From Anas platyrhynchos (Eukaryota > Chordata > Aves > Anseriformes > Anatidae), in assembly GCF_047663525.1 (NCBI RefSeq), contig NC_092617.1, positions 5,933,501-5,997,500 of the forward strand: DNA of 64,000 nt, in the 5' to 3' direction. Positions 506-52,574 of this stretch are shown one piece after another. The notes beneath the pieces are model-generated. The model was given only the letters and a program-made list of their open reading frames with translations, was not told the origin of the DNA and searched no databases. Position 1 is the stretch's first letter; each line of letters starts with the position of its first letter. Made by a program: the position numbers and the translations under genes.

Positions 506-510
506 CCCAG

Positions 511-9188: not shown

Positions 9189-9276
9189 GCGGCCCCAAAA
9201 CGGCCGCTTTTGGCCCCAAAACGGCGACGCAAAAGAGGACGGCGGGGGGAGGACGGGAGAGGGGACGGATCCGGGA

Positions 9277-12958: not shown

Positions 12959-13039
12959 TCAGAAAATCATGGCTTTGGGCTCCCCCCGGGGCTTGCGGAG
13001 CTTCTCCATGTTCTTCTGCAGGACATCGAGGAGCACGGC
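12959..13039 (-). CDS. PSME1: PSME1 exon 11 (C-terminus)
   Basis: 81 nt, AVLLDVLQKNMEKLRKPRG then EPKAMIF-stop (TGA). The human tail is KPRGETKGMIY; the C-terminal residues dock into 20S alpha-ring pockets. No canonical AATAAA was found on this strand within about 800 nt; ATTAAA occurs at 12088-12093. Confidence 0.95.
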   Translation of the reverse strand, partial: AVLLDVLQKNMEKLRKPRGEPKAMIF

Positions 13040-16000
13040 CTGTGGGGTGGGGGGGGGGACACAAAGGGGGTTATGGGGTCGGTTTTGGGGTCAGGATGGG
13101 GGTTTTAGGGTCGGGGACCCCAAAACTCACGTAGAGGTCCCGGAGCTCCGTCAGGGCCAGGCGCGTCGCCCCCACTTCGGCCGCGTCCAGGGCGTGGACC
13201 AGGGCCCGGTAATCCAACTGGGGGGTAATGGGGTTAATGGGAGACCCCCGGGGACCCCAAAAGACCCCATAGACCCCCAAAGACCCCAAAGACCCCAAAA
13301 GACCCCAAAAGACCCCAATAGACCCCATTGTCCCCTATGAACACCCATGGGATCCCATAGACCCCCATAGACCCCAATAGACCCCATAGACCCCAATAGA
13401 CCTCAAAGACCCCGATGTGACCCCAAAAACCCCAAAAGACCCCAATGTGACCCCATAGACCCCAAAAGACCCCAATGTGACCCCAAAAACGCCAATAGAC
13501 CCCAACAGACCTCATAGACCCCAATAGACCTCAAAGACCCCAATGTGACCCCATAGACCCCATAGAACCCCCATAGACCCCAATAGACCCCATAGACCCC
13601 ATAGACCCCAATAGACCCCAAAGACCCCGATGTGACCCCAAAAACCCCAATAGACCCCAGTGGACCCCAATGTCCCCCATGAACCCCCATGGGACCCTAA
13701 AAGACCCCAACAGACCCCATAGACCCCAATAGACCTCAAAGACCCCAATGTGACCCCATAGACCCCATAGAACCCCCATAGACCCCATAGACCCCAATAG
13801 ACCCCAATGTGACCCCAAAAACCCCAATAGACCCCAACAGACCCCATAGACCCCAATGTGGCTCCATAGACCCCAATAGACCCCAAAGACCCCAATGTGA
13901 CCCCAAAAACCCCAAAAGCCCCCAATGTGACCCCATAGACCCCATAGACCCCAATAGACCCCAAAGACCCCAATGTGACCCCAAAAACCCCCAAAGACCC
14001 CAATGTGACCCCATAGACCCCAAAAGACCCCAATGTGACCCCATAGACCCCAAAGACCCCAATGTGACCCCAAAAACCCCAAAAGACCCCAATGTGACCC
14101 CATAGACCCCAATAGACCCCCAAAGACCCCAAAGACCCCAAAAGACCCCAAAAGACCCCAATAGACCCCATTGTCCCCTATGAACACCCATGGGATCCCA
14201 TAGACCCCCATAGACCCCAATAGACCCCAAAGACCCCGATGTGACCCCAAAAACCCCAATAGACCCCAGTGGACCCCAATGTCCCCCATGAACCCCCATG
14301 GGACCCCAAAAGACCCCAATAGACCCCAAAAACCCCAATAGACCCCAACAGACCCCATAGACCCCAATAGACCTCAAAGACCCCGATGTGACCCCAAAAA
14401 CCCCAATAGACCCCAACAGACCCCCTAGACCCCAATGTGGCCCCATAGACCCCAATAGACCCCAAAGACCCCAATGTGACCCCAAAAACCCCAATAGACC
14501 CCAACAGACCCCCTAGACCCCAATGAGCCCCCATAGACCCCATAGACCCCATTGAACCCCAAAGACCCCAATGTGACCCCAAAGACCCCAATAGACCCCA
14601 ATGGACCCTAAAAGACCCCAATGTGACCCCATAGACCCCATAGACCCCAAAAGACCCTAATGTGACCCCAAAAACCCCAATGAGCCCCCATAGACCCCAT
14701 TGAACCCCAAAGACCCCAGTGTGACCCCATAGATCCCAAAAGACCCCAATGTGACCCCAAAAACCCCAATAGACCCCAACAGACCCCATAGACCCCATAG
14801 ACCCCAAAAGACCCCAATGTGACCCCAAAAACCCCAATAGACCCCAACAGACCCCCTAGACCCCAATGTGGCCCCATAGACCCCAAAAGACCCCAATAGA
14901 CCCCAGTAGACCCCATTGTCCCCCATGGACCCCCATGGGACCCCATAGACCCCAATAGACCCCAAAGACCCCGATGTGACCCCAAAAACCCCAAAAGACC
15001 CCAATGGACCCCATAGACCCCCATAAACCCCAAAGACCCCAATATGGCCCCAAAGACCCCAATGAGCCCCCGTAGACCCCATAGACCCCAATAGACCCCA
15101 AAGACCCCAATGTGACCCCATAGACCCCAAAAGACCCCAATGTGACCCCAAAAACCCCAATAGACCCCATTGGACCCTAAAAGACCCCAATGAGACCCCA
15201 TAGACCCCAATAGACCCCAAAGACCCCAATGTGACCCCATAGACCCCAAAAGACCCCAATGTGACCCCATAGACCCCAATGAACCCCCATAGACCCCAAA
15301 AGACCCCAAAAACCCCGATGTGACCCCAAAAACCCCAATAGACCCCAATGGACCCCATGGACCCCCATAGACCCCGATAGACCCCAAAAGACCCCAAAAG
15401 ACCCCAAAAACCCCAATAGACCCCCAAAGACCCTAAAAGACCCTATGGACCCCAGTGGACCCCCATGGGACCCCATAGACCCCAAAAGACCCCAACAGAC
15501 CCCAATAGACCCCAATAGACCCCAAAAAAACAAAGTGACCCCAAAGACCCCAAAATAACCCCAAAGTGCCCCCATGGACCCCAATAGACCCCATTGTACT
15601 CCACTAAGACCCCAAAGTGCCCCCAAATGACCCCAAAAGTGCCCCCATGGACCCCAATATGACCCCAATGAGCCTCCAGGGACCCCAAGGCGATCCAATC
15701 AACCCCAAATGCATCAAACAGACCCCAAAAACCCCCAAATTCACCCCAAAATTCCCCCAGATCCCAATACACCCCTACAGACCCCCCAAAAACCCCAAAA
15801 CACCCCGAATTCGCCCCAAATTTCTCACCACGTGGGGGTTTTTGGCCGCCTTGGACACGGCGTCGCCCCGCTCCGACAGGTACCTGGAGGTTTTGGGGTG
15901 AGATCGGGGGATTTAGGGTCACGGGGTTTTGGGGTCGGAGGGGGGGACCCCAAAAAAAAACCCCAAAAACTCACTTGGGCAGGCGGCCCTGGAGCCCCTC

Positions 16001-19000
16001 GAGTTGGGTGCGGGATGCGGTCAGCAGCTCCAGAACCTTCTCCTATTTTTGGGGAAAATTTGGGCGGTTTTGGGTTTTTGGGGGTTTTGGGGGGTTTTAA
16101 GGGATTTTGGGGAGGATTTGGGGGGATTTGGGAAAGTTTAGGGGATTTGGGGGGGAAAGGGGAGAGTTTGGGGGATTTAGGGGAGGATTTGGAAGGGTTT
16201 GGGGGAATTTGGGGGGATTTGGGGGATTTAGGAGGGGATTTGGGGGAATTTGGGGGGATTTGGGGATTTTGAGGGAATTTAGGGGATTTTGGGGGATTTA
16301 AGGGAATTTGGAGGGATTTGGGGGAATTTTGAGGGGACTTGGGGGAATTTGGGGGAATTTGGAGGGGATTTGGGGGGATTTGGGGGAATTTGGGGTGAAT
16401 TTGGGGGAATTTTGAGGGATTTGGGGGAATTTGAGGGATTTGGGAGAATTTGGAGGGATTTGGGGGATTTAGGAGGGGATTTGGGGGATTTTGAGGGATT
16501 TGGGGGAATTTGGGGGGGTTTGGGGGAAATTTGGAGGGATTTGGGGGGATTTTGGTAGTTTGGGGTGGATTTGGGGGGAAATGGGAAGGATTTGGGGGAT
16601 TTAGGAGGGGATTTGGGGGATTTAGGAGGGGATTTGGGGGAATTTGGGGGGATTTTGGTAGTTTGGGAGGAAATGGGGAGGATTTCGGGGATTTAGGAGG
16701 GGATTTGGGGGATTTAGGGGGATTTGGGGGAATTTGGAGGATTTGGGGGAATTTGGGGGGATTTGGGAGGATTTGGGGGGGATTTTGTTAGTTTGGGGTG
16801 GATTTGGGGGGAAACGGGAAGGATTTGGGGAATCTGAGGCAATTTGGGGGGGATTTTGGGGTCCCTGGGGGATAATTGGGGGAAATAACGGGGATTTTGG
16901 GGTTCCTGGGAATTCCTGGGGTAAAATTGGGGCGAATAACGAGGATTTTGGGGTCCCTGGGTGGGATTTGGGCGAGTCGGGGCGGGATTTGGTGTAAAAC
17001 CGGGGCAATTTGGGATTAAACTAATTCGGGCCGCTTGGCTGAAAACCGGGGAGGGAATTTGGGGTTAAAAAGGGCGGATTTGGGATTTTGGGGCAAAAAA
17101 GAGAGATTTTGGGGCAAAAAAGCGGGATTTTGGGGTCCCCCCCCTTTTTTACCTGCACGGCCACCCCGAAATTATCCCCGTCCTCGATGCGGGGCACCTG
17201 CAGCTGCAGCCAGAGCGCCACCTGCCCCCAAAATCCCCCTTTTTCACCCCAAAAACTTCGTCCTCTTAAACCACGCCCCCTCCCTAAGCCCCGCCCCCTT
17301 TGACCTCCCTTAACCCCTCCAGGCCCCGCCCCCTTCCCCCTAAGCCCCTCCCCTTCCCCTAAGCCCCTCCCCCTTAGGCCACGCCCCCTCCCTAAGCCCC
17401 GCCCCCTTGCCCTCCCTTAACCCCCTCCAGGCCCCGCCCACCGCCCCCAAACCCCGCCCCCTTTGAGGCCACGCCCCCTTTAAGCCCCGCCCCCTCCCCC
17501 CTAAGCCCCGCCCCCTCGCCTGGGCCACGTGGTTCCGGGCTTCGGCCAATCGGGGGCGGCAGCGCTCCAATAGGGCCAGCAGGGCCGGGTGGCTCCCGAT
17601 TGGTGGGCAGGGGGGGGCTGGGGGGGCACGTGACCCCCTTAGCCACGCCCCCTATGACCATATATGGGGTGGGGGGCGGGGGTAACCCATGGGACCCATA
17701 AGTGCCCCATGGGACCCATAAGTGCCCCATAAGTGCCCCATAAGTGCCCCATAAGTGCCCCATAAGTGCCCCATAAGTGCCCCATAAGTGCCCCATAAGT
17801 GCCCCATAAGTGCTCCATAAGTGACCCATAAGTGCCCCATAAGTGCCCCATAAGTGCCCCGTAAGTGACCCATAAGTGCCCCATAAGTGACCCATAAGTG
17901 CCCCGTAAGTGCCCCATAAGTGCCCCATAAGTGCCCCATAAGTGCCCCATAAGTGCCCCATAAGTGACCCATGGGACCCATAAGTGCCCCATAAGTGCCC
18001 CATAAGTGACCCATAAGTGCCTCATAAGTGCCCCATAAGTGCCCCATAAGTGCCCCATAAGTGACCCATAAGTGCCCCATAAGTGCCCCATAAGTGCTTC
18101 ATAAGTGCCCCATAAGTGACCCATAAGTGACCCATAAGTGACCCATAAGTGCCCCATAAGTGACCCATAAGTGCCCCATAAGTGCCCCATAAGTGACCCA
18201 TAAGTGACCCATAAGTGCCCCGTAAGTGCCCCATAAGTGCCCCATAAGTGACCCATAAGTGACCCATAAGTGCCCCATAAGTGACCCATAAGTGACCCAT
18301 AAGTGCCCCATAAGTGCCCCGTAAGTGCCCCATAAGTGACCCATAAGTGTCTCATAAGTGCCCCATAAGTGCCCCATAAGTGCCTCATAAGTGACCCATA
18401 AGTGCCCCATAAGTGCCCCATAAGTGACCCATAAGTGACCCATAAGTGCCTCATAAGTGACCCATAAGTGCCCCATAAGTGCCCCATAAGTGACCCATAA
18501 GTACCCCATAAGTGCCCCATAAGTGACCCATAAGTGACCCATAAGTGACCCATAAGTGCCCCATAAGTGACCCATAAGTGACCCATAAGTGCCCCATAAG
18601 TGCCCCATAAGTGACCCATAAGTGCCCCATAAGTGCCCCATAACTGCCCCATAAGTGACCCATAAGTGCCCCATAAGTGCCTCATAAGTGCCCCATAAGT
18701 GACCCATAAGTGACCCATAAGTGCCCCATAAGTGCCCCATAAGTGCCCCATAAGTGACCCATAAGTGTCCCATAAGTGCCCCATAAGTGACCCATAAGTG
18801 ACCCATAAGTGCCCCATAAGTGCCTCATAAGTGCCTCATAAGTGCCCCATAAGTGCCCCATAAGTGCCTCATAAGTGACCCATAAGTGCCCCATAAGTGC
18901 CCCATAAGTGCCCCCTAAGTGCCTCGTAAGTGCCCCATAGGTGACCCATAAGTGCCTCATAAGTGCCCCATAAGTGCCCCATAAGTGACCCATAAGTGAC

Positions 19001-26439: not shown

Positions 26440-28650
26440 CCCGCCGCTACTGGGTGTTACTGGGGCATACTGGGATGAACTGGGAGCTACTGGGGCCGAC
26501 TGGGGTCTACTGGGTGTTATTGGGGCATACTGGGATGAACTGGGAGCTACTGGGGCCAACTGGGGTCTACTGGGGGGCCTCCCCCCCCCTCTACTGGGGC
26601 CTACTGGGGCTGACTGGGATGTACTGGGGTTGACTGGGGTCTACTGGGGTCTACTGGGGGGCCTCCCACCCCTCTACTGGGGTCTACTGGGTGTTACTGG
26701 GGCATACTGGGATGAACTGGGAGCTACTGGGGCTGACTGGGGTCTACTGGGGCTGACTGGGGTGTACTGGGGTCTACTGGGGCCTACTGGGGGGCCTCCC
26801 CCTCCTCTACTGGGTGCTACTGGGGCATACTGGGATGAACTGGGACCTACTGGGGCCGACTGGGGCCTACTGGGGGGCCTCCCCCCCTCTACTGGGGTCT
26901 ACTGGGGGCTTTTGGGGCATACTGGGGTGTACTGGGGCCTACTGGGGCTGACTGGGGTGTACTGGGGTCTACTGGGGGGCCTCCCACCCCTCTACTGGGG
27001 TGTACTGGGGGCTTTTGGGGCATACTGGGACAAACTGGGAACTACTGGGGCTGACTGGGGTCTACTGGGGCTGACTGGGGTGTACTGGGGTCTACTGGGG
27101 CCTACTGGGGGGCCTCCCCCTCCTCTACTGGGTGTTACTGGGGCATACTGGGATGAACTGGGACCTACTGGGGCCGACTGGGGCCTACTGGGGGGCCTCC
27201 CCCCCTCTACTGGGGTCTACTGGGGGCTTTTGGGGCATACTGGGGTGTACTGGGGCCTACTGGGACTGACTGGGGTTTACTGGGGGCTACTGGGTGGCCT
27301 CCCCCTCCTCTACTGGGGTCTACTGGGTGCTACTGGGGCATACTGGGACAGACTGGGACCTACTGGGGCCGACTGGGACCTACTGGAGCATAATGGGATC
27401 TACTGAGGCCTACTGGGGGGCCTCCCCCCCCTCTACTGGGGCCTACTGGGGTCTACTGGGATCTACTGGGACCTACTGGGGCCTATTGGGGCCTACTGGA
27501 GTCTTCTGGGGCCTACTGGAGCCTACTGGTGCCTACTGGGGTCTACTGGGGTCTGCTGGAGATTACTGGGACCTACTGGAGCCTACTGGAGTTTACTGGG
27601 GACTACTAAGGCCTACTGGGGCCTACTGGGACTTACTGGAGACTACTGGTGCATACTGGGGGCTACTGGAGCCTACTGGGGCCTACTGAAACTTACTGGG
27701 ACCTACTGGGGTCTACTGGAGCCTACTGGGGTCTACTGGGGCCTACTGGAGCCTACTGGGGCCTCCTGGGGCCTACTGGGGTCTACTGGAGCCTACTGGG
27801 GCCTACTGGGGCCTACTGGGGCCTAGTAGGACCTACTGGGCCATACTGGGGCCTACTGGGATCTACTGGGGCCTACTGAGGCCTACTGGGGCCTACTGGA
27901 GCCTACTGGGGCCTACTGGGACCTACTGGGCCATACTGGTGCCTACTGGGGCCTACTGGGGTCTACTGGAGCCTACTGGGGTCTAGTAGGACCTACTGGG
28001 CCATACTGGGGCCTACTGGGACCTACTGGGCCATACTGAGGCCTACTGGGGCCTACTGGGATCTACTGGAGCCTACTGGGGCCTACTGGGGCCTACTGGA
28101 GCCTACTGGGGTCTAGTAGGACCTACTGGGCCATACTGGGGCCTACTGGGGTCTACTGGGACCTACTGGAGCCTACTGGGCCATACTGGAGCCTACCAGG
28201 GCCTACTGGGGCCTACTGGAGCCTACTGCGGCCTACTGGAGCCTACTGGGGTCTAGTAGGACCTACTGGGCCATACTGGGGCCTACTGGGACCTACTGGG
28301 CCATACTGAGGCCTACTGGGGCCTACTGGGATCTACTGGAGCCTACTGGGGCCTACTGGGGCCTACTGGAGCCTACTGGGGTCTAGTAGGACCTACTGGG
28401 CCATACTGGGGCCTACTGGGGTCTACTGGGACCTACTGGAGCCTACTGGGCCATACTGGAGCCTACCAGGGCCTACTGGAGCCTACTGCGGCCTACTGGG
28501 ATCTACTGGGATCTACTGGAGCCTACTGGTGCATACTGGGGGCTACTGGAGCCTACTGGGGTCTAGTAGGACCTACTGGTCCATACTGGGGCCTACTGGG
28601 GCCTACTGGGGTCTACTGGGTTCTACTGGGGCCTACTGGGGCCCTGTAGA
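26440..28650. repeat. 10-bp TACTGGGGCC minisatellite
   Basis: About 220 units (TACTGGGGTC, TACTGGAGCC, TACTGGGACC) between PSME1 and FITM1. Higher-order blocks repeat, for example GTCTAGTAGGACC-containing blocks about 270 bp apart at 27981 and 28251. Confidence 0.93.
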
Positions 28651-30239: not shown

Positions 30240-31467
30240 TTACCCCCCCCCCCTCGGCCTCAACCCCAACCCGGGCCTCCCCGGCGAGCAGGGGCAGCGG
30301 TACCAGAGCCGGTAGGTGAGGGCCCAGGCGGCCCAGCCCAGGGCGGCCCCGGCGGCGTTGGCGGCCCAGTGGCACCGGTAAGCCAAGGTGGCCACCAGCG
30401 CCCCCTGCCACAGCAGCAGCAGCCCGGCGTTGAGGAGGAAGAGGAGGCACAGGGGGGCGGTGGCCACCACCTTGGGCTCCTCGGTAGCCACCCGGGTGCC
30501 TCCGGTAGCCATACTGGTATTGGTGGCCACCCAGTTGCCTCCGGGAGCCATACTGGTATTGGTGGCCACCCAGTTGCCTCCGGGAGCCATCATGGCGTTG
30601 GTAGCCAACCGGTTGTCCCTGGTAGCCAGACTGGTGGTGGTGGCCAACCGGTTGCCTCCAGTAGCCATACTGGTGTCAGTAGCCATCCAATCGTCCCTGG
30701 TAGCCAGCCTGGGGTCAGTAGCCACCCAGTTGCCTCCGGTAGCCATACTGGGGTCAGTAGCCATCCAGTCATCCCTGGTAGCCATCATGGTGTTGGTAGC
30801 CACCCGGTTGTCCCTGGTAGCCATCCTGCGGTCACTAGCCACCCAGTCACCTCCAGTAGCCCTCCTTCCATCGGTAGCCATCCAGACGTCCCCAGTAGCC
30901 ATTCTGGTGTTGGTAGCCACCCAGTCGCCTCCAGTAGCCCTCCTGTGGTCAGTAGCCACCCAGTCGCCTCCAGTAGCCATTCTGGTGTTGGTAGCCACCC
31001 AGTCACTTCCAGTAGCCCTTTGTCCACCAGTAGCCACCCAGTCACTTCCAGTAGCCCTCCATCCATCGGTAGCCACCCAGTCGCTTCCAGTAGCCATCCT
31101 GCGCTCACTAGCCACCCAGTCACCTCCAGTAGCCCTTTGTCCACCGGTAGCCACCCGGGCGTCCCCGCTAGCCCCCCGGGGCGGGTGGAGGAGCCTCCCC
31201 AGAGCCCCCAGCTCCTCGCCCAAGCCCAGGCCGCAGAGGACGAGGCCGAAGGCCTGGGGGGACGGGCGGAGGCCGGCGGCGGCCTCCAGGGCGGCGAAGA
31301 GGCGGGGGGCGGCGGCGGCCATGACGGTTGCCCCCACGGCTAGCCGGCCGGCCGCCCGCAACAGCGCCCCCCGGCGACCGCCCCCCGGCTGGGCCAGGGG
31401 GAGGGAGGCCACCAGCAGGGACCCCAGGAGCAGCGCCGTCCAGCGGCCGGCCGAGGCGACGAGGCGG
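30240..31467 (-). CDS. FITM1: FITM1 exon 2
   Basis: The acceptor CCCCACAG precedes 31467. Membrane segments WTALLLGSLLVASLPLA, LAVGATVMAAA and FGLVLCGLGLGEELGALGRL are followed by the 39-bp repeat (30484-31163). Then come LCLLFLLNAGLLLLW and the C-terminus ending RPRGGG-stop (TAA 30240-30242). No good GT/AG pair bounds the repeat, so it is likely translated. Confidence 0.87.
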
Positions 31468-33710
31468 CTGTGGGGCAGGGATGGGGGGCTGGGGTGGGGG
31501 GACCCCATAGGGACCCCATGGAGACCCCATAGAGACCCCACAGACCCATAGCGACCCCATAGAGACCCCATAGAGCCCATAGACCCATAGAGACCCCATA
31601 GACCCATAGAAATCCCCAAGACCCCATAGAGACCCATAGAGACCCATAGACCCCATAGAATTCCCATAGAGCCCATAGACCCATAGAAACCCCATAGAAA
31701 CCCCATAGACCCATAGAAACCCCATAGAGACCCCACAGACCCCATAGACCCCATAGAGACCCCATAGACCCATAGCGACCCCATAGGAACCCCATAGGGA
31801 CCCATAGAGACCCCATAGAGACCCATAGACCCATACAAACCCCATAGAGACCCCATAGACCCCATAGAGACCCCATAGACCCATAGAAACCCCATGGACC
31901 CATAGCGACCCCATAGAAATCCCATAGACCCCCCATAGACCCATAGAGACCCCATAGGGACCCATAGACCCCATAGGGACCCACAGACCCCATAGAGACC
32001 CCATAGACCCCATAGAATTCCCATAGAGCCCATAGACCCATAGAGACCCCATAGGGACCCATAGAGACCCCATAGACCCCATAGAGCCCATAGAGACCCC
32101 ATAGAGACCCCATAGACCCCATAGAAATCCCACAGAAACCCCATAGACCCATAGAAACCCCATAGACCCATAGAGACCCCACAGACCCATAGCGGCCCCA
32201 TAGAAACCCCATAGAGACCCACAGAAACCCCACCCAGCCCCATAACCCCCATAGCACCCCCCATAGCACCCACGCTGCCCCATAGCCCCCAGCCCCATAA
32301 CTACTCCCCAGCCCCACAGATTCCAGCCCCATAGGACCCAGCCCCATAGATCCCCTGCCCCATAGATCCCAGCCCCACAGATTCCAGCCCCACAGATTCC
32401 AGCCCCATAGGTCCCCTGCCCCAGATTCCAGCCCCATAGATCTTGCCCCATAGATCTTGCCCCATAGATCCCAGCCCCATAACTCCCCAGCCCCATAGAT
32501 CCTGCCCCATAGATCCCCAGCCCCATAGATCCTGCCCCACAACCACCCCCAAACCCCATAACCAGTCTCCAGCCCCACATCTCCCCCCCAGCCCCATAAC
32601 CCCCCTTTGCCCCATAACCACCCCCAGCCCCATAGATCCCCCCACCCCACAGCTCCCTGCCCCACAACTCCTCAGCCCCACAGATCCCAGCCCCACAGAT
32701 CCCAGCCCCACAACCAGCCCCATAACCACCCCCTCAGCCCCATAGCTCCCAGCCCCACAACTCCCCAGCCCCATAGCTCCTGCCCCATAGATCCTAGCCC
32801 CATAACCACCCCCAGTCCCATAACCACCCCCTCCAGCCCCATAACTCCCCAGCCCCATAGCTCCCAGCCCCACAACTCCCCAGACCCATAACTCACCTGC
32901 CCCATAGATCCCAGCCCCATAGCTCCTGCCCCATAGATTCCCAGCCCCATAACCACCCCCAAACCCCACAACCAGCCCCACAACCACCCCCTCCAGCCCC
33001 ATAGCTCCCAGCCCCATAGCTCCCAGCCCCATAGATCCCAGCCCCATAACCACCCCCAGCCCCACAACCACCCCCTCCAGCCCCGTAACTCCCCAGCCCC
33101 ATAACTCCCCTGCCCCATAGATCCTGCCCCATAACTCCCCAGCCCCATAGCTCCCAGCCCCACAACTCCCCAGCCCCATAACTCCCCAGCCCCACAACTC
33201 CCAGCCCCACAACTCCCCAGCCCCATAACTCCCCAGCCCCATAGATCCCAGCCCCACAACTCCCAGCCCCACATCTCCCCCCAGCCCCATAACTCCCCAG
33301 CCCCATAGATCCCAGCCCCATAGATTCCCAGCCCCATAACCACCCCCTCCAGCCCCATAGCTCCCAGGCCCACAACTCCCCCGCCCCACAGCTCCCAGCC
33401 CCACAACCCCCCCCCCCCCCCGCCCCATAGATCCCTGCCCCCCAACTCACGCCTCCAGCAGGTTGTGGGGCGAGGCCAGCACCCCATGGGGGTCAGCCCC
33501 ACGGCGCAGGGCCGGCTCCAGCCCCACAAGTGCGGCCACCCCCAAAGCGTGGGCCCGGGCGAAGCCGGGGGTCCCCAGCAGCGCCGCCGCCCCCCGGCTC
33601 AGCCCCACAAGTGCCGCCCCACAGCAGCGCCCCACAAGTGCCGCCCCCCAGCTCAGCCCCACAAGTGCTGCCCCACAGAGCCCGCGGAGCCCCACGGCGG
33701 CCTCCGCCAT
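30240..33710 (-). CDS. FITM1: FITM1, fat storage-inducing transmembrane protein 1 (two exons, expanded)
   Basis: FIT proteins are ER membrane proteins for lipid-droplet formation; FIT2 is reported to be an acyl-CoA diphosphatase. Exon 1 is 33451-33710 and exon 2 is 30240-31467, joined in phase 2; 1488 nt, 495 residues (human 292). The N-terminal half aligns gap-free with human FITM1 (AAALLGTPG vs AARLLGSPC; NLLEARLVASAGRWT vs NFFNIKFVNSAWGWT). The end also aligns (APLCLLFLLN vs APLRLVFLLN; WALTYRLWY vs WYLTYGSWY; SPGRPGLGL vs SPGSPGHGL). The middle is abnormal: the loop with the first catalytic His is shortened and reads SPQAF for SSHTF. A 39-bp coding minisatellite inserts about 225 residues. 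Position between DCAF11 and PSME1 agrees with human. Confidence 0.9.
30484..31163 (-). repeat. FITM1: 39-bp in-frame coding minisatellite in FITM1
   Basis: About 17 copies of a 13-residue unit of type ATGGDWVATNTRM (variants ATGSDWVATDGWR, ATRDDWMATDPSM, APGGNWVATNTSM). It is a multiple of three with no stop. The plus-strand frames across it are open too, so openness alone is weak evidence of selection. Confidence 0.88.
31500..32250. repeat. CATAGAGACCCCATAGACC minisatellite (FITM1 intron)
   Basis: Units of about 10-19 bp; the sense (minus) strand is G-rich. Confidence 0.9.
32255..33440. repeat. CAGCCCCATAACTCCC minisatellite (FITM1 intron)
   Basis: Units of about 15-19 bp (CCCCATAGATCCCAG, CCCCACAACTCCC). 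With the preceding array it fills the 2-kb intron. Confidence 0.9.
33451..33710 (-). CDS. FITM1: FITM1 exon 1
   Basis: Starts MAEAAVGLRG with G at -3 and +4, a good Kozak context, and ends NLLE plus two bases before donor GTGAGT. It is hydrophobic and Ala/Gly/Leu-rich, covering the first membrane segments. Confidence 0.88.
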
Positions 33711-35466: not shown

Positions 35467-35472
35467 TTTATT
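35467..35472 (-). promoter_or_regulatory. DCAF11 poly(A) signal overlapping the stop codon
   Basis: AGC AAA TAA AGG: the hexamer AATAAA contains the TAA stop, so the 3'UTR would be only about 15-30 nt. It is the first signal after the WD40 domain; TGACGTCATCTGTGGGGC follows. Confidence 0.75.
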
Positions 35473-35572
35473 TGCTGTGGGGCAGGGGCGCTGTGGGGCG
35501 GCCGCCCCCGGCCTCGTCCTCGTCGTCCTCCTCCGGCTCCCGGTAGGCCCAGAGGCGCACGCTCCCGTCCCA
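35468..35572 (-). CDS. DCAF11: DCAF11 coding exon 13 (C-terminus)
   Basis: 105 nt, WDGSVRLWAYREPEEDDED then EAGGGRPTAPLPHSK-stop (TAA 35468-35470). The stop codon is inside an AATAAA poly(A) signal at 35467-35472. Confidence 0.96.
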   Translation of the reverse strand, partial: WDGSVRLWAYREPEEDDEDEAGGGRPTAPLPHSK

Positions 35573-38500
35573 CTGTGGGGCAGCCCCATAGATTCGTGCC
35601 CCATAGAGGCCAGAGCCATAGGGCCCAGACCCATAGAGGCCAGACCCATAGATTACACCCCATAGATCCCCAGCCCCATAGATACCAGCCCCATAGGTCC
35701 CAGACCCATAGATCCCAGCCCCATAGATTCCAGCCCCATAGATCCCAGCCCCATAGATTCCCAGCCCCATAGAGCCCCAGACCCATAGATCCCAGACCCA
35801 TAGATTCCCGGCTCCATAGAGCCCCAGACCCACAGATTCCAGCCCCATAGATCCCAGCCCCATAGATCCCAGCCCCATAGATTCCCAGCCCCATAGAGCC
35901 CCAGACCCATAGATCCCAGCCCCATAGATTCCCGGCTCCATAGAGCCCCAGACCCACAGATTCCAGCCCCATAGATCCCAGCCCCATAGAGCCCCAGACC
36001 CATAGAGCCCCAGCCCCATAGATCCGTGCCCCATAGAGCCCCAGACCCATAGATTCCAGACCCATAGGTTCCAGCCCCATAGATCCCAGCCCCATAGATT
36101 CCCAGCCCCATAGAGCCCCAGCCCCATAGATCCCAGCCCCATAGATCCCAGCCCCATAGATTCCCAGCCCCATAGAGCCCCAGACCCATAGATCCGTGCC
36201 CCATAGAGCCCCAGACCCACAGATTCCAGCCCCATAGATCCCAGCCCCATAGATTCCCAGCCCCATAGAGCCCCAGACCCATAGATCCGTGCCCCATAGA
36301 GCCCCAGACCCACAGATTCCACCCCATGCATCCCTCACCCCATAGATCCCAGACCCATAGGTTCCAGCCCCATAGGTTCCAGCCCCATAGATTCCAGCCC
36401 CATAGATCCCAGCCCCATAGATTCCCGGCTCCATAGAGCCCCAGCCCCACAGATTCCCTGCCCCATAGATTCCCAGCCCCATAGATTCCAGCCCCATAGA
36501 TCCCAGACCCATAGATCCCAGCCCCATAGATTCCCGGCTCCATAGAGCCCCAGACCCACAGATTCCAGCCCCATAGATCCCAGCCCCATAGAGCCCCAGA
36601 TCCATAGAGCCCCAGACCCATAGATCCCAGCCCCACAGATCCCCAGCCCCATAGATCCCAGCCCCATAGATCCCCACCCCATAGACCCCTCCCCATAGAA
36701 CCCCCACCCTATAGACCCCTGCCCCATAGATTCCCCGACCCCCTAGATCCCAGCCCCATAGGCCCCCCCCACCCCATAGACCCCCACCCCATAGATCCCA
36801 GCCCCACAGATCCCAGCCCCATAGATTCCCCACCCCATAGACCCCCACCCCACAGACACCCCCACCCCATAGACCTCTACCCCATAGAACCCCCACCCTA
36901 TAGACCCCTGCCCCATAGATTCCCTGACCCCATAGCTCCCAGCCCCATAGGCCCCCCCACCCCATAGATCCCCACCCCATATACCCCAGCCCCACAGATC
37001 CCAGCCCCATAGCTCCCCCCACCCCACATATTCCAGCCCCATAGATCCCCACCCCACAGACCCCCACCCCATAGATCCCCACACCATAGATTCCCAGCCC
37101 CATACATCCCCCCGCCCCATATATTCCAGCCCCATAGATCCCAGCCCCACAGATCCCAGCCCCATAGGCCCCCACCCCACAGACCCCCACCCCACAGACA
37201 CCCCCACCCCATAGACCCCCACCCCATAGATTCCCCACCCCATATACCCCAGCCCCATAGATCCCAGCCCCATAGACCCCAGCCCCATAGATTCCCCACC
37301 CCACATACCCCCACCCCATAGATTCCCCCACCCCATATACTCCAACCCCACAGACCCCCAGCCCCATAGATCCCAGCCCCACAGATCCCGAACCCCATAG
37401 ATCCCCACCCCATAGAACCCCCACCCTATAGACCCCTGCCCCATAGATCCTCCCACCCCATATACCCCTGCCCCATAGACCCCTCCCCCTAAGCCCCTCC
37501 CCCTCCCTTGAAGCCCCGCCCACCGAGGCGCTGGCGAGCTCCGCCCCCTGGGGGTGCCAGCAGACGTCCCGCACGCAGCCCCCGTGATTGGCCAAGCGCC
37601 GCACGGCCCGGCCAGTCAGAACGTCGTATACTGCGGGGTGGGGGGCGGGGTCACAGAGGCCACGCCCCCCTCCCTTAAACCACGCCCCCTCCCTTAAGCC
37701 ACGCCCCCTTTGGCTCCCCCCCCATTCATTCAATGGGGGCTAAGCCCCGCCCCCAGCCTTTAAGCCCCGCCCCCAGCCTCAAGCCACGCCCCCATTGGCC
37801 ACGCCCCCATCCCTTAGGCCACGCCCCTCCCCTAAGCCACGCCCCCTCCCTAAGCCACGCCCCCTTTGACCTCCCCCCATTCATTCAATTGGGGCTAAGC
37901 CACGCCCACAGCCCTTAAGCCACGCCCCCTCCCATAAGCCACGCCCCCTTTAAGCCACGCCCCCTCCCTTAAGCCCCGCCCCTTTTGACTCCCCCTACCC
38001 CACCCCATTGAATCTAAGCCCCGCCCCCAGCCTTTAAGCCCCGCCCCCTCCCCTAAGCCACGCCCCCTCCCTTAAGCCCCGCCCCCTTTAAGCCCCACCC
38101 CCCTTTAGGCCCCACCCCTCCAGACCACGCCCATTTAGGCCCCGCCCCCTTTTCCAGGCCCCGCCCCCTTTTTAAGCCCCGCCCCCTCCCCTAAGCCACG
38201 CCCCCTCCCTTAAGCCCCACCCCCTTTAGGCCCCGCCCCCTTAAGCCCCTCCCCCTTAAGCCCCGCCCCCTGGGACCCCACCCCCTTAAGCCCCACCCCC
38301 TCCAGACCACGCCCATTTAGGCCCCGCCCCCCTTTTAGGCTCCACCCCCTTTTCCAGGCCACACCCCCTTTTTCCAGCCCCGCCCCCTTTTCCAGGCCCC
38401 GCCCCCTTTTTTAGGCCCCGCCCCCTCCCCCCTTTACCCAGCACCGCCCCCGAGGCGCAGCCGGTGGCCAGGTGGCGCCCCCCGGCGGGGGCCAGGCGGC

Positions 38501-41500
38501 AGCGGATGAGGGTGTGCAGCACCGCGTGGCCCCGCAGCGTCACCAGCGAGCTGTCCCCCGGCAGCGGCGCCGTCCCCAGGGCTGCCCCAAAAAAATTTGG
38601 GGGTCAGGGGGGCCCACAGACCCCATAGGGACCTACAGGACCCCATAGGACCCCATAGAGACCCATAGAGGCCATAGGGCCCCATTGAGCCCCATAGCGC
38701 CCCATAGCAGCCTATAGGGCCCCATACACCCCATAGACCCCATAGTGCCCCATAGGGACCTATAGGACCCCATAGACCCCATAGAAACCTATAGGGACCC
38801 ATAGACCCCATAGAGGCCCCATAGACCCTATAGGGACCTATAGGACCCCATAGACCCCATAGGGACCCATAGGGACCCATAGCACCCCACAGACCCCATA
38901 GAGACCCCATAGGACCCATAGGGACCTATAGGGACCCCATAGAGACCCCATAGGACCCATAGGGCCCCATAGACCCCATATAGACCCCATAGAGACCCCA
39001 TAAGACCCATAGGGACCCATAGGGACCTATAGGGACCCATAGGACCCATAGAGACCCATAGGGACCCATGGAACCCATAGAGACCCCATAGGACCCATAG
39101 ACCCCATAGAGTCCCATAGTGCCCCATAGGACCCCATAGACCCCATAGGGCCCCATAGACCCTATAGGGACCCCATAGGACCCCATAGACCCCATAGGGC
39201 CCCATAGACCCTATAGGGACCCATGGAACCCATAGAGACCCCATAGGACCCATAGACCCCATAGAGACCCCATAGTGCCCCATAAGACCCCATAGACCCT
39301 ATAGGGACCCATAGACCCCATATAGACCCCATAGAGACCTATAGACCCCATAGACCCTATAGGGACCCATAGGGACCCATAGACCCCATAGGGACCTATA
39401 GGGCCCCATAGACCCCATAGAGCCCTATAGGGACCCATAGACACCATAGACCCCATAGGGACCTATAGGACCCATAGAGACCCCATAGAGACCTATAGAC
39501 CCCATAGACCCTATAGGGACCCATAGGGACCCATAGACCCCATAGGGACCTATAGGGACCCATAGGAACCCATAGGGCCTCTTAGACCCCATAGACCCCA
39601 TAGAGACCCCATAGACCCTATAGGGACCCATAGACCCCATAGAGACCCCATAGGACCCATAGAGACCCATAGGGACCCAAAATGACCCCATAGTGACCCA
39701 TAACCACCCCATAGTGACCCCCAACCACCCCAACCACCCCATAACCACCCCAAACCACCCCATAACCACCCCAAAACCACCCCATAGTGACCCATAACCA
39801 CCCCAAACCACCCCATAACCACCCCCAACCACCCTATAACCACCCCATTACCACCCCATAGTGACCCATAACCACCCCATAGTGACCCCAAACCACCCCA
39901 TAACCACCCCAAAACCACCCCAAAACCACCTCCAACCACCCCAAAACCACCTCCAACCGCCCCATAACCACCCCATAACTACCCCATAGGGACCCAAACC
40001 ACCCCAAACCCCCCCATAATGACCCATAACCACCCCATAGTGACCCATAACCACCCCAAACCACCCCATAACTACCCCATAGGGACCTCCAACCACCCCA
40101 AACCTCCTCCAACCACCCCATAACCACCCCAAACCACCCCAAACCACCCCAAAACCACCCCAAAACCACCCCATAGTGACCCATAACCACCCCAAAACCA
40201 CCCCAAACCACCCCATAACCACCCCATAACCACCTCCAACCACCCCATAGTGACCCCCAACCACCCTATAACCACCCCAAACCACCCCATAGTGACCCAT
40301 AACCACCCCGACCCCATAACCACCCCATAACCACCCCAAACCACCTCCAACCGCCCCAAAACCACCCCATAGTGACCCATAAACACCCCATAACCACCCC
40401 AAACCACCTCCAACCACCCCAAAACCACCTCCAACCGCCCCATAACCACCCCATAACCACCCCTGACCCCATAACCACCCCCCGGCCCCACATCTCACCC
40501 CTCCGTGGGGCGCGTTGCCAGCGGTAATCCCAACTCTGCCGGGCCACGGCTCGCCGGGCGGCCGCCAAAACCCCCGGCCCCGCCGGGCGCCGCAGATCCC
40601 AAAGTTTGGCCGTCTGGTCCTTGGAGTTGGTCACCAGGTAGCGCCCGTCACCCTACGGGGGGGGGTGACGTCATCGCTGAGGTCATCGGGGGGGAGTTGG
40701 GGGTCAACGGGGTGAGGAACGGCAAGTTTGGGGTCAATGGGGTGAAAAATGTCATATTTGGGGTCAATGGGGTGAGGAACGGCAAGTTTGGGGTCAATGG
40801 GGTGAAAAATGTCATATTTGGGGTCAACAGGGATGGTAGAACCATGAAAAATGTCATATTTGGGGTCAGTGGGGTCAATGGGGTGAGGAACATCAAAATT
40901 GGGGTCAATGGGGTGAAAAACGTCAAGATTGGGGTCATCATGGTCAACAGAACCATGAGAAACGTCATATTTGGGGTCAATGGGGTCAATGGGGTGAGGA
41001 ACATCAAAATTGGGGTCAATGGGGTGAAAAATGTCATATTTGGGGTCAATGGGGTGAAAAACGTCATATTTGGGGTCAATGGGGTGAGGAACGGCAAGTT
41101 TGGGGTCAATGGGGGGAAAAATGTCATATTTGGGGTCAATGGGGTGAAAAATGTCAAGATTGGGGTCAATGGGGTGAAAAACGTCGTATTTGGGGTCAAT
41201 GGGGTGAAGAACGTCAAGATTGGGGTCAATGGGATGAAAAACGTCAAGGTTGGGGTCAATGGGGTGAAAAACTTCAAAATTGGAGTCATCATAGTCAATA
41301 GAACCATGAGAAACGTCGTATTTGGGGTCAATGGGGTCAATGGGGTGAAAAACGTCAAGATTGGGGTCAATGGGGGTGGTAGAACCATGAGGAACATCAA
41401 AAATGGGGTCAATGGGTGAAAAATGTCAAGATTGGGGTCAAAAATGACGGTGGAATCATGGAGAATGTCATATTTGGGGTTAATGGGGTGAAAAATGTCA

Positions 41501-44500
41501 TATTTGGGGTCAATGGGGTCAATGGGGTGAGGAACATCAAAATTGGGGTCAATGGGGTGAAAAATGTCATATTTGGGGTCAATGGGGTGAAGAATATCAA
41601 GATTGGGGTCAATGGGGTGAAAAATGTCAAGATTGGGGTCAACGGGGTGAGGAATCATGAGGAACATCATAGTCCCCTCCCAGTGCCTCCCAGTCCTCCC
41701 AGTCCCCTCCCAGTATATCCCAGTATCCCCCAATCCCCTCCCAGTCCCTCCCAGTCCCCCCATATCCCCCCCATATCCCCCCAAATCCCCTCCCAGTCCC
41801 TCCCAGTCCCCCCATAACCCCTCCCAATCCCCTCCCAGTCCCTCCCAGTGCCTCCCAGTCCCTCCCAATCCCCTCCCAGTCCCCCCATATCCCCCCCAAT
41901 CCCCTCCCAATCCCCCCAAATCCCCTCCCAGTCCCTCCCAATCCCCTCCCAGCCCCTCCCAGCCCCTCCCAGTCCCCCCCAGTCCCCCCCAGTTCCCCAC
42001 CCGGGGGTGCAGGAAGGTGACCCCGTCGCGGTGCCCCGCCAGGACCCCCACGGGCTGGGGGCGCTCCTGGCTCAGGCAGCGCCGGTCCCAGGCCCGGCAG
42101 ACGGCGTCGTCCCCCCCCGACAGCAGGAGGTGGCCCCCGGCGTCCCCCAGCGCCACCGCGTTCACGTCGTCCTCGTGGGCGGGCACCTAGTTTGGGAGGA
42201 TTTGGGGCTTTTTGGCGATTTTTGGCGATTTTGGGCGATTTTGGGCGATTTTGGGCGATTTTTAGCATTTTTGGCGTTTTTTAGCGTTTTTTGGCGTTTT
42301 TTAGCGTTTTTTTGGCGTTTTTTTAGCATTTTTTGGTGCTTTTTTAGCTTTTTTTGGAGTTTTTTGATGCTTTTTTTAGCGTTTTTAGTGGTTTTTTTTT
42401 GCATTTTTAGCGTTTTTTTGCGTTTTTTTAGTGTTTTTTGGAGTTTTTTAGCATTTTTTGGCGTTTTTTAGCGTTTTTTTGGTGTTTTTTTTGCGTTTTT
42501 GATGCTTTTATAAAGCGTTTTTTAATGTTTTTTTTGGGGGCGTTTTTTGGCGTTTTTTTTGTGTGTGTGTTTTTTAGCGTTTTTTGGCGTTTTTTGGCGT
42601 TTTTAGTGTATTTTGGTGTTTTTTAGCGTTTTTTAGCGTTTTTTGTTTTTTTTTTTTTTAGCGTTTTTTAGTGGTTTTTTGGCTTTTTCTTTTTTTGGCG
42701 TTTTTGTGGTTTTTTGGGCTTTTTTTGGTGTTTTTTTATCGTTTTTTTTTTTGCTTTTTTTTTGGTGTTTTTGGTTCTTTTTGTCTTTCTTTTTACGTTT
42801 TTGGATTTTTGTGTTTTTTTGGGGGGGGTTAGGGGTTTTGGGGGTTTTGGGGGTTTTGGGGGGGTTTGGGGGTTTTGGGGGGTTTCGGGGGGGGTTGGGG
42901 GTTTTTTGGGGTTTTGGGGGTTTTGGAGGGTTTTGGTGTTTTTTGGTGTTTTGGGGGGTCCCCCCCCGACAGCAGCAGCTGCCCCCCGGCGTCCCCCAGC
43001 GCCACCGCGTTCACGTCGTCCTCGTGGGCGGGGACCTGGTTTGGGAGGATTTGGGGGGTTTTTGGTGATTTTTGGCGTTTTTAGCGTTTTTTGGCATTTT
43101 TTGGAGCTTTTTGGCTTTTTTTTGGCATTTTTTGGGTGCTTTTTGGCGCTTTTTTGGCTTTTTTTGCGGTTTTTTACACTTTTTTTTAGCGTTTTTTAGT
43201 GGTTTTTGGCGTTTTTTGCCGTTTTTTGGCGTTTTTTTTTTCCGTTTTTTAGCGTTTTTTTGGCGTTTTTTGGCGTTTTTTTGGTGTTTTTTGGCTTTTT
43301 TTAGCGTTTTTTAGTGATTATTTTTGCGTTTTTGGCTTTTTTTGGCGTTTTTTGGCGTTTTATGGCGTTTTTGCTGTTTTTTAGGATTTTTTTGCCGTTT
43401 TTTAGTGTTTTTTGGTGTTTTCTGGTGTTTTTAGGTGTTTTTAGACGTTTTGAGGGGTTTTGGGTGTTTTTTTTTTTGGCGTTTTTTTGTGGTTTTTTTT
43501 GGCAGCTTTTGGAGTTTTAGGTTGTTTTTTTTTGGCGTTTTATAGCGTTTTTTGGCGTTTTTTGGCGTTTTTTGGCTTTTTTTTTTTTGGTGGCTTTTGG
43601 AGTTTTTTGTTGTTTTTTTTTTTTTTTTTTGCGTTTTATGGCGTTTTTTGCCGTTTTTTAGCGTTTTTTGGCGTTTTGGGGGGTTTTGGGGGGTTTGGGG
43701 GCATTTGGGGGGGGTCACCACGACCCCATAACCATCTATGGGGCCACCGCCCCCCAAACACAATCTATGGGGCCACTGGGCGATCTATGGGGCCACCACC
43801 CCCCAACCATGATCTATGGGGCCACCACAACCCCATAACCATCTATGGGGCCACCTGGTCATCTATGGGGCCACCACCCCCCAACCACAATCTATGGGGC
43901 CAGCGGGCGATCTATGGGGCCACCCCACCCCATAACCATCTATGGGGCCACCACCCCCTCAACCACAATCTATGGGGCCACCACGACCCCATAACCCTCT
44001 ATGGGGCCACCGGGCGATCTATGGGGCCACCTCAACCCAACCATGATCTATGGGGCCACCCCACCCCATAACCATCTATAGGGCCACCACCCCCCAACCA
44101 CAATCTATGGGGCAAGCGGGCGATCTATGGGGCCACCCCACCCCATAACCATCTATGGGGCCACCACGACCCCATAACCATCTATGGGGCCACCAGAAGA
44201 TCTATGGGGCCACCACCCCCCAACCTTGATCTATGGGGCCACCATGACCCCATAACCATCTATGGGGCCACCTGGTCATCTATGGGGCCACCGCCCCCCA
44301 ACCTTGATCTATGGGGCCACCATGACCCCATAATGATCTATGGGGCCAGCGGGCGATCTATGGGGCCACCCCACCCCACAACCCCACCCCACAACCCCCC
44401 CCCCCGGCCGTGGGGCTGACCCGTAGGACGCGGCGCTGGGCCTCGCGGTCGTAGACGTAGACGCAGCCGTCGTTGGCGCCCCCCAGGACCTCGCGCCCGT

Positions 44501-47500
44501 CCGGCCCCACAGCCAGGGAGAAGACGGCGAAGCGGCGCTCCTCCGGCCTGTGGGGCGGCCCCATAAGTCCTCCAGGCCCCCCATAAGTCCTCCAGGCCCC
44601 CCATAAGTCCTCCAGGCTGCCCCATAAGTCCTCCAGGCCCCCCATAAGTCCTCCAGGCTGCCCCATTGACCTCCAACTTGACCTTTTGACCCCTACCTTG
44701 ACCCCTTGACCTCTACCTTGACCCCCTGACCTCTACCTTGACCTTTTGACCTCCAACTTGACCTTTTGACCCCTACCTTGACCCCTTGACCTCTACCTTG
44801 ACCCCCTGACCTCTACCTTGACCTTTTGACCTCCTACTTGACCTTTTGACCTCTACCTTGACCCATTGACCTTCAGGGACCTCCAACCCACCCCATTGAC
44901 CTCCGCCTTGACCCCTTGACCTCCACCTTGACCCCTTGACCTCCCCCCCGCCCCAGGCCCCACCTGAGGTCGAGCGCCGTGTGGTTGTCGCCGTCCCCGT
45001 AGATGTCGTAGACGTGGACTGGGGGGGGAAGGGGAGGGGCCAGGAGTGGGCGGGGCACTTTAAGCCCCTCCCCCTTCCCCCTTTAGCCCCTCCCCCTTCC
45101 CACAAGCCCCTCCCCCTTCCCATAAGCCCCTCCCCCTCCCCTTGACCCAACGCCGGGAGGTCAACGCCCTTGGGTCTTGACCTCTACCACCAAGCCCCAC
45201 CCCCTTCCCCAAGCCCCGCCCCCTTTCCCCAAGCCCCGCCCCCTCCCCACAAGCCCCGCCCCCTCCCCATAAGCCCCGCCCCCTCCCCCCTAAGCCCCGC
45301 CCCCCACTCACTGTAGTCGGACCAGCTGGAGTAGAGGCACTGGGAGGCGTCGGGGCTGAAGGCCACGTCCAGGATGCTCCAACCAACGTCGCGGCCCCGC
45401 GTCGAGCGCAGCAGCCGCAGGGCCCGGCCCCGGCACGTGTACACCCGCAGGGTCTGGTCTGGGGCACCGGGGGTCACGGCAAATCCCCAAATCCCCCCAA
45501 AATCCCAAAATCCCCAAAATCCCACAAAAATTCCCCAAAACACGGCTTTTTCCCCAGCAAAATGCCACTTCGCGCGCCCGAAATAGGCGTTTTCGCACCC
45601 AAAATACGCCAAAATGCACTTTTCTGGCTCCAAATGGAGCTTTTCCCACCCAAAATGGAGCTTTTCTCACCTAAAATACCCCAAAAAGCACTTTCTCCCA
45701 TCAAAATATCGCTTCGCGTGCCCAAAATCAGGATTTTCCCACCCAAAAGACCCCAAAATGCACTTTTCTGGCTCAAAGTTGAGGTTTTCCCACCCAAAAT
45801 CGCGTTTTTCTCACCCAAAATAACCTAAAATGCATTTTCCCCCGTCAAAATGCCACTTTGCACGCCCAAAATCAGGATTTTCCCACCCAAAATATGCCAA
45901 AATGCAATTTTCTGGCTCAAAGTTGAGCTTTTCCCACCCAAAACGGAGTTTTTCTCGCTCAAAATACCCCAAAAAGCACTTTCTCCCATCAAAATATCAC
46001 TTTGCATGCCCAAAATTGGGATTTTCCCACCCAAAATATGCCAAAATGCAATTTTCTGGCTCAAAGTTGAGCTTTTCCCACCCAAAACGGAGTTTTTCTC
46101 GCTCAAAATACCCCAAAAAGCACTTTCTCCCATCAAAATATTGCTTTGCATGCCCAAAATAGAGGTTTTTCACACCCAAAATACGCCAAAATGCACTTTT
46201 CTGACTCCAAGTTGAGCTTTTCCCATCCGAAATTGAGTTTTTCTCTTTCTCAAATAGCCCGAGATGGGCTTTTTCCAATCAAAATATTATTTGGTTGCCC
46301 AAAACCCTCCTCGTCCCACCCAAAATACCTAAAAAACCACCTTTTTTTCTAAAAATACCGCTTTTTACACCCTGAAACACCCCAAAATCCATTTTTCCTG
46401 CCAAATAGCCCCGTTTTCCTGCTAAATCCACCAATTTTCCTTCCCCAAAACACCCCTTTTCCTCCCCTTTTCCATCCAAACCACTTTTTCCCCTAAAAAC
46501 ACCCAAAACCCTTCTTTTTCACCCCAAACCCATTTCCTACCCCAAACCCCTCATTTCCCTTAAAAAAACATCCAAAAACCTCACTTTTCTCCCCCCAAAC
46601 CCTGCGTTTTTCTCCCCAAAACCCCTCCCTACACCCTCCACCCCATTTTTTTTCCCAAAAACCCCGTTTTTCGCCCCAAAACCTTGGCAGGCGGAGACGA
46701 AGAGCTCGCCGTCGTCGGAGAAGATGCCGCAGAACGCCTTCTGCGGGTAGGACTCCACCGCCGCCACGTGATTGGGCAGGAAGCTGGGGGGCGGGGACAG
46801 AGTGGGGGAGGGGCCTCGGGAAGCCCCGCCCACCGGCACCACCCCCAGGCCTCCAGGGGGTCAACGCAACGTCTCTATGGTCAACGTCTCTATGGTCAAC
46901 GTCTCTATGGTCATCCCAACATCTCTATGGTCAACGTCTCTATGGTCAACATCTCTATGGTCCTCCCAACGTCTCTATGGTCAACCCATCGTCTCTATGG
47001 TCAACCCAACAACTCTATGGTCAAGGTCTCTATGGTCAACGTCTCTATGATCAAGGTCTCTATGGTCAACTCAATGTCTCTATGGTCATGCCAACATCTC
47101 TATGGTCCTCCCAATGTCTCTATGGCCAACCCAGCGTCTCTATGGTCAACGTCTCTATGGTCAACATCTCTATGGTCATGCCAACTTCTCTATGGTCATC
47201 GTCTCTATGGCCAACCCAACGTCTCTATGGTCAATGTCTCTATGGTCAACATCTCTATGGTCATCCCAACGTCTCTATGGTCATTCTAAGTTCTCTATGG
47301 TCATCCCAACATCTCTATGGTCCTCCCAACGTCTCTATGGTCAATGTCTCTATGGTCAACGTCTCTATGGTCATCCCAACGTCTTTGTGGTCATCCCAAT
47401 GTCTCTATGGTCAACAACTCGATGGTCATCATCTCTATGGTCATCCTAACATCTTTATGGTCCTCCCAACATCTTTGTGGTCATCCCAATGTGTCTATGG

Positions 47501-52110: not shown

Positions 52111-52574
52111 CTACATCTTCTTCAGCCTCCCCTCCAGCGCCTCCAGCTCGGCCATGACCTCGCGGGGCAAATCCTCGCCGAAATTCTCCTCGTAGTAGGC
52201 CCGCAGCTCCCGGGCTTCCTTCTCCCAAAACTCCTTGCCCACCTCGAAGAGGTCCCGGTGGGCCACCCCGGGGAGCCCCCGCAGGTCCAAAGCCCCCTCG
52301 CGGGGCACCCAACCGATGGGGGTGGCCTGGGCGTTGTCTTCTCCTTCCAGCCGGCCGAAAATCCAAGCCAAAACGCGGGCGTTGTGGCCAAAACCGGGCC
52401 ACAAAAATTTTTGGGGGCGGGCGGGGTCGCGCAGGAACCAGTTGACGTGGAAGAAGCGGGGCAAGCGCGCGCCCCCCCCCCGCTCGCCCATGGCCAGCCA
52501 GTGGGCCAGGTACTGGCCCGCGTTGTAGCCGAAAAAGGGGCGCATGGCGAAGGGGTCGTGGAGGATGCGGCCAC
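52111..52574 (-). CDS. PCK2: PCK2 terminal exon
   Basis: 464 nt from [17 protein letters not shown] through [52 protein letters not shown] to the C-terminus GRLKKM-stop (TAG 52111-52113). Confidence 0.97.

Follow-up and report, generated by a model that had tools for sequence, protein, structure and literature searches.

Sequence stuttering, described from the dot chromosomes of the chicken, consists of local imperfect repeats in GC-rich genes, with intron length varying between individuals; in that paper the repeat blocks are isolated within introns, none is seen crossing into an exon, and coding regions are called "intact" (Hron et al., 2026; PMC12954441). A better known repeat of coding sequence is the 48-bp VNTR in exon 3 of DRD4, which is polymorphic in people at 2-11 repeats and lies in a disordered cytoplasmic loop (PMC3877354). 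Among the literature matches listed, the stuttering paper came closest on coding minisatellites of birds and on stuttering; its main text does not name FITM1, and the titles and abstract openings of the papers listed for FITM1 with birds, chicken, avian or tandem repeat record no repeats in that gene.

Here we describe a minisatellite inside a coding exon of FITM1, which encodes a membrane protein of fat storage, in the mallard, Anas platyrhynchos, found in a stretch of 64,000 nucleotides (NC_092617.1, positions 5,933,501 to 5,997,500; the window), to which all coordinates refer. On the minus strand, 17 full units of 39 bp, or 13 residues, run from 31154 down to 30492 (30492..31154; consensus VATDTRMATGGDW) with no stop in the FITM1 frame and 81% identity to the consensus, and a degenerate array edge, VATEEPKVVATAP, occupies 30453..30491 on the same strand (its Mergus counterpart is VATEEPKLVATAP). 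Tandem Repeats Finder reported 30483-31134 at period 39, with 16.7 copies, 77% matches and 0% indels, and the existence of an in-frame array inside the FITM1 coding exon is thereby confirmed. Each 13-residue unit is a 6 + 7 pair based on Ala-Thr, and when the blocks are cut by position alone, positions 2 and 8 are occupied by Ala in 17/17 mallard units; an invariant Ala in 36/36 units of three species was set aside, as the parser had demanded Ala at those positions and the count therefore holds by construction. The array has a GC content of 61% (63% at third positions), against 78.5% (92%) in the remaining coding sequence, and the loop that it fills between two aligned FITM1 segments is 252 residues long. 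If translated, the units would give peptides such as MATGGDWVATDHR. The sequence-only reading had named the gene FITM1 and placed in it about 17 open, in-frame 39-bp units, in a loop between membrane helices; the gene model and homology over both flanks, the unit count, the repeat period, and the alignment and structure model presented below agree with it throughout.

The mallard array shares with stuttering its imperfect tandem repeats, its units of tens of bases and its setting in a GC-rich bird gene, and the repeat-filled FITM1 intron resembles the published intronic form; unlike stuttering, the array lies wholly within a coding exon and in frame. It would be a coding variant of the stuttering process if the locus lies on a dot chromosome, a location to which composition and repeat content point; the contig that bears P0001 measures 6,328,656 bases. 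The resemblance to DRD4 lies in an in-frame unit that is a multiple of three within a predicted disordered loop of a multi-pass membrane protein; the FITM1 repeat differs in ranging over 7-17 units across three species, where the variation known for DRD4 is polymorphism in people, and in that three unrelated repeat families occupy the same FITM1 loop across birds. The mallard gene also resembles FITM1 of mammals, lepidosaurs and turtles (P0011, P0015-P0019, P0026 and others) in its exon-junction residues, helix pattern, C-terminal SPG.PG motif and neighbour genes (by the human gene order), but in those animals the loop has 17-18 residues, in 16/16 non-bird rows.

The mallard gene model has two coding exons encoding 495 residues in an intact frame, all on the minus strand: exon 1 at 33451..33710 (ATG at 33710; donor GGC|GTGAGT), a GT-AG intron of 1983 bp at 31468..33450 that joins both exons in one reading frame, and exon 2 at 30240..31467, including the stop codon (acceptor CCCCACAG|CCG). 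Arrays of 11-bp and 15/31-bp families cover 96% of the intron. A protein search found the product to be identical to P0001, a public "uncharacterized protein [Anas platyrhynchos]" whose cluster has one member sequence, and the exon-junction residues LLEA/RLVASAG align without gaps with most other birds. With simple frequency tables, the basis of all splice scores given here, the exon 1 donor reaches no more than 4.5. By the same tables a donor within the intron, CAG|GTGAGT at 32896 (minus), scores 12.4, and a strong acceptor lies at 33712 (minus), immediately upstream of the ATG; together they may point to a further FITM1 exon, upstream or alternative, that the annotation lacks. Exon 1 carries a second coding array, a 27-bp unit present 3.4 times in frame (33586..33678, minus; GAALVGLS... 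in the first helix), which makes that helix longer in the mallard and is unchanged in Mergus; Anser has a different expansion, and several other birds have a shorter N-terminus.

Identity and neighbourhood agree with this assignment. A FITM1 profile search placed P0001 among named FITM1 proteins at E = 1.4e-82, with a profile that itself included the trimmed duck protein, and a single-query search with residues 1-180 of kagu FITM1 recovered P0001 at 5.8e-37; these alignments indicate that the mallard gene is homologous to FITM1 over both flanks of the array. The Pfam FIT model (PF10261) did not match the duck protein, for which 0 families were returned at E <= 10; in seven other bird proteins it reached 17.3 and 19.8 bits in two, against a cut-off of 21.4, and found no match at E <= 1 in the other five. 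Human FITM1 scores 50.3 bits with the same model. The public record P0001 bears Pfam PF27023.1; our own Pfam search of the protein gave no match to that family. Upstream of FITM1 lies DCAF11 (35468..50130, minus; located with P0009, the DCAF11 protein of the cormorant, as tblastn query, start and stop codons read), and downstream lies the 3' part of the proteasome activator gene PSME1 (12962..17221, minus; tblastn with P0014), whose Pfam PF02252 match (E = 0.00099, 19.3 bits) falls under the cut-off of 20.9. By tblastn all three genes lie on one strand, in what we take to be the gene order of human chromosome 14.

The surroundings of this block hold further genes. Exons of a PCK2-like phosphoenolpyruvate carboxykinase lie upstream of DCAF11 at 52114-52602, 58699-59142 and 63536-63835 (minus), the first two matching PEPCK_GTP and the third assigned by eye, a placement that presumably agrees with the human gene order. 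On the plus strand, 480-9190 contains immunoglobulin heavy-chain constant exons (C1-set, E = 2e-24; membrane exons by eye), for which the chicken IgY heavy chain stood third among the PDB matches listed, so that an antibody locus sits about 4 kb from PSME1, beside the DCAF11-FITM1-PSME1 block. At 8722-9113 (plus) a 158-bp unit is present about 2.4 times and duplicates a segment of a likely membrane exon together with its splice acceptor (FFKVGF..NHV), apparently a case of the published stuttering of an exon in an intron.

The same loop carries repeats in other birds. Three protein searches, each scoring about 8,000 best candidates, yielded 14 bird models from 13 species, nine of which have both flanks and form the bird comparison; P0009, P0028 and P0037, which depart from FITM1 at or before the loop, the partial and mis-modelled P0033, and P0027, a model of Strigops (kakapo) without the loop seen in P0008 from that species, stand outside it. 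Between fixed points the loop measures 252 residues in Anas, 134 in Mergus, 180 in Anser, 365 in Grus, 223 in Rhynochetos, 226 in Pseudopodoces, 49 in Strigops, 25 in Aegotheles and 19 in Calidris. When one ruler is laid on birds and non-birds alike, the nine birds span 20-366 residues and the non-birds 17-18 in 16/16 aligned rows (16 of the 26 non-bird matches of the profile search were aligned, four of the 16 being classed as non-bird by resemblance). Anas, Mergus and Anser have one common 13-residue repeat, in 17, 7 and 12 units as parsed by script, with degenerate edges, and with Trp at position 13 in 25/36 units. A common 10-residue repeat occurs in the crane (Grus) and the kagu (Rhynochetos), and a 7-residue repeat in the ground tit (Pseudopodoces). 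A period test took in seven loops, those of Aegotheles and Calidris being too short, and in six of the seven the period exceeded all 300 shuffles, including periods 10/20 in Grus, 10 in Rhynochetos and 7 in Pseudopodoces; the period of the Strigops loop did not rise above its 300 shuffles.

Loop similarity reached z > 22 within a repeat family and z <= 3.3 between families, so that, compared as protein sequences, the three families are mutually unlike. Because non-bird loops have 17-18 residues and the families are unrelated, three or more groups of birds would each have expanded the loop with units of unrelated sequence, or it was expanded once and then overwritten. Within the Anatidae the flanks are identical at 237/243 positions between Anas and Mergus (97.5%) and at 201/243 between Anas and Anser (82.7%). 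Units of Anas, Mergus and Anser have identities of 0.55, 0.65 and 0.62 within species, 0.42-0.43 between the goose and either duck, and 0.57 between the two ducks; since the units of the two ducks are no more alike within than between species, unit turnover is visible against the goose only. The sequence-only reading had expected length to vary between individuals and had looked to relatives for unit numbers that break the frame: between species the numbers do differ and the frame is kept, with the qualification that the relatives are annotated proteins and hence in frame by construction, and that three of the 14 bird models depart from FITM1 at or before the loop. Bird models that leave FITM1 or skip the loop tell against a simple reading. 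In gene, frame, unit length, copy number and loop position its interpretation is nonetheless supported, translation and variation between individuals being what it predicts, and the comparison of bird proteins appears to make the finding broader, with the same loop bearing unrelated repeats in other birds.

An AlphaFold model built from 27 aligned sequences (mean pLDDT 57.6, pTM 0.52) replaced a poor first model from nine sequences (mean pLDDT 43). It shows helices at residues 9-45, 50-63, 65-71, 84-107, 119-151, 157-180, 186-194, 424-450 and 454-475, with pLDDT mostly 70-90 in the helical core and below 50, without secondary structure, over residues 196-410, a low value that is expected either way because few sequences cover the insert. 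Mean hydropathy over residues 192-415 is -0.57, and no 19-residue window exceeds 0.14. The model thus predicts that the insert forms a disordered loop between membrane helices 157-180 and 424-450. FITM proteins are described as having six membrane segments with both termini cytosolic and the conserved histidines lumenal (PMC11484260); on that topology the loop would be cytosolic, yet the model shows seven long helices. Neither a PDB sequence search with mammalian FITM1 P0011 nor a PDB fold search with the duck model found a relative.

This picture presupposes that the loop is kept in the mRNA. It would not be if the array were an exitron, spliced out to leave a mature protein with a short loop. 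Inside the array there are indeed two fair donors, with the sequence GAG|GTGACT and a score of 7.3, at 31123 and 30850, and past it a pyrimidine-rich stretch, which codes for the next helix, ends at an acceptor at 30404. That acceptor is weak, however (4.2), and is the sole one beyond the array above 4, and joining it to the donor at 31123 would cut 719 nt, not a multiple of three, along with the helix as far as residue 441. No pair of sites in exon 2 that both score >4 would remove the array with its flanks in frame, the simplicity of the frequency tables tempering every such score. In the kakapo, P0027 passes directly from one side of the loop to the other, and the short Calidris loop (P0006) could share this origin, but kakapo P0008 retains the loop, as do the models of mallard, goose, merganser, crane, kagu and ground tit. 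Because use of the acceptor at 30404 shifts the frame and deletes the next helix, splicing of this kind is unlikely, and we proceed with retention of the loop.

A second alternative is that FITM1 is decaying or dead in ducks, the array being neutral debris in an exon free of selection, and here the catalytic residues speak first. The conserved FIT histidines are given as H155 and H214 (PMC11484260), and both aligned positions are changed in the mallard, to Q158 and C452. In the first column Gln occurs in 11/11 bird rows and Pro or Ala in 4/4 turtle rows, with His in 11/12 other non-birds (Asp in a shark) and in 11/16 non-birds overall; in the second, which we take by numbering to be FITM1 H244, the numbering being matched through the human sequence, the nine bird rows with a residue have His in five, Cys in three (the Anatidae) and Asn in the ground tit, and lizards and turtles are also variable. 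The three Anatidae lack some 30 residues that the crane, kagu and sandpiper models have ahead of the first histidine site, and pN/pS in the array is close to that of other frames. Because both histidines are replaced, we file duck FITM1 as an ortholog by descent and not as a working FIT enzyme, and the residue columns suggest that FIT catalysis is altered or lost in FITM1 of turtles and birds and that the function of the gene may have been relaxed or altered in turtles and birds before the bird loop expansion. Against death of the gene stand the intact frame of 495 codons, flanks that are 97.5% (mallard-merganser) and 82.7% (mallard-goose) identical, figures read here with no neutral yardstick between these species, arrays of 17, 7 and 12 units in the mallard, merganser and goose models without loss of frame, and many residues invariant over nine birds. 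We therefore consider outright decay improbable, and favour a gene that is maintained, probably under relaxed constraint.

How unusual the array is depends on what surrounds it. Arrays cover 78.6% of the bases of the window, and 36% of FITM1 exon 1 and 57% of exon 2. In the 12 DCAF11 and PSME1 matches with >=38% identity, array cover is 0-8% in 11 and 29% in one; this count leaves out four DCAF11 matches of 29-37% identity, whose array cover is 30-66%, as well as a match in which the P0014 query hit FITM1 itself. Among those four, 50199-49927 overlaps the true first DCAF11 coding exon, which is Glu/Gly-rich with its ATG at 50130, so that simple sequence in coding exons is not wholly confined to FITM1. 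Arrays being the rule in the window, the remarkable part of this one is its position inside a coding exon. It is very improbable that misassembly produced the array or its number of repeats: a window so rich in repeats is hard to assemble, but the units differ among themselves (81% identity to consensus) and are therefore anchored, and the same repeat type appears in merganser and goose records, the goose cluster having two members from two contigs.

Several properties of the array carry less weight than they might seem to. Two plus-strand frames are also without stops across it, since a 39-bp unit free of stops remains open once copied, and we therefore rejected the open frame as weak proof of coding; a star simulation gave P = 0.021 for zero stops in the FITM1 frame, with 3.6 stops expected. 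Between mallard units (16 of the 17), pN/pS is 0.63 in the FITM1 frame, the lowest of six frames; three others have 0.66, 0.73 and 0.79, and because the value is barely below these, selection on the units is not demonstrated. The absence of indels was likewise rejected as proof, loci 2017-2987 and 9290-10712 also having 0%. The second of these is a 10-bp-based array with 75-76% matches and 0-1% indels at periods 20-50, a nested 10-bp row with 10% indels, and stops in all six frames; it is nearly indel-free though non-coding. Hairpin formation was discarded as a special cause because it is not specific to this array (z = -4.07, against -3.11, +0.88 and +3.67 in three other arrays, from 20 shuffles per array). 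An origin of the unit in another part of the window was not accepted either, as the matches were mostly weak ones to the 10-bp array around 26486-28567, with a best E of 2.4e-4 in low-complexity sequence.

We think it probable, on the evidence as a whole, that the FITM1 array is a coding minisatellite made by a dot-chromosome process and tolerated in a permissive loop of a relaxed FITM1. The tandem duplication with which introns and intergenic sequence on avian dot chromosomes become filled may also have hit the FITM1 coding exon, most likely through slippage during replication or through unequal exchange on a microchromosome that recombines often. The surviving arrays have units that are divisible by three and stop-free in the FITM1 frame, a pattern that selection may have left. 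In the protein models, the loop between helices 157-180 and 424-450 would accept almost any polar, disordered insert, as it joins two helices and would need no fixed length; such tolerance could account for the way in which unrelated repeats have lengthened it in three or more groups of birds, with an apparent turnover of copies between duck and goose. A relaxed constraint on the gene, which in birds and turtles has already lost the first histidine, may have aided this tolerance. Most likely the insert is translated and forms a long, floppy and probably cytosolic loop in an ER protein of several helices, with little or no function that depends on its sequence.

FITM1 thus appears to be a concrete exception to the description of dot-chromosome instability in birds as sparing coding sequence, one that concerns an economically important duck and, with unrelated repeats, two further bird groups. 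It suggests a boundary of tolerance, namely a unit divisible by three, an open frame and a disordered loop, and it offers a locus at which genotypes for protein length could be compared with fat storage in muscle. The repeats may also explain why bird annotations read "uncharacterized", "ZFP36L3-like" and "basic salivary proline-rich protein 1-like". More speculatively, and with a good deal of doubt, we can imagine bird FITM1 as a non-catalytic, TAG-handling scaffold of muscle whose length-variable loop dot-chromosome instability keeps rewriting with in-frame repeats, so that tether length would differ between species and individuals and be exposed to selection, for example on lipid use in flight muscle. 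If that were true, a chromosomal repeat process would act as a source of new protein sequence in birds, beyond its contribution to the bulk of introns.
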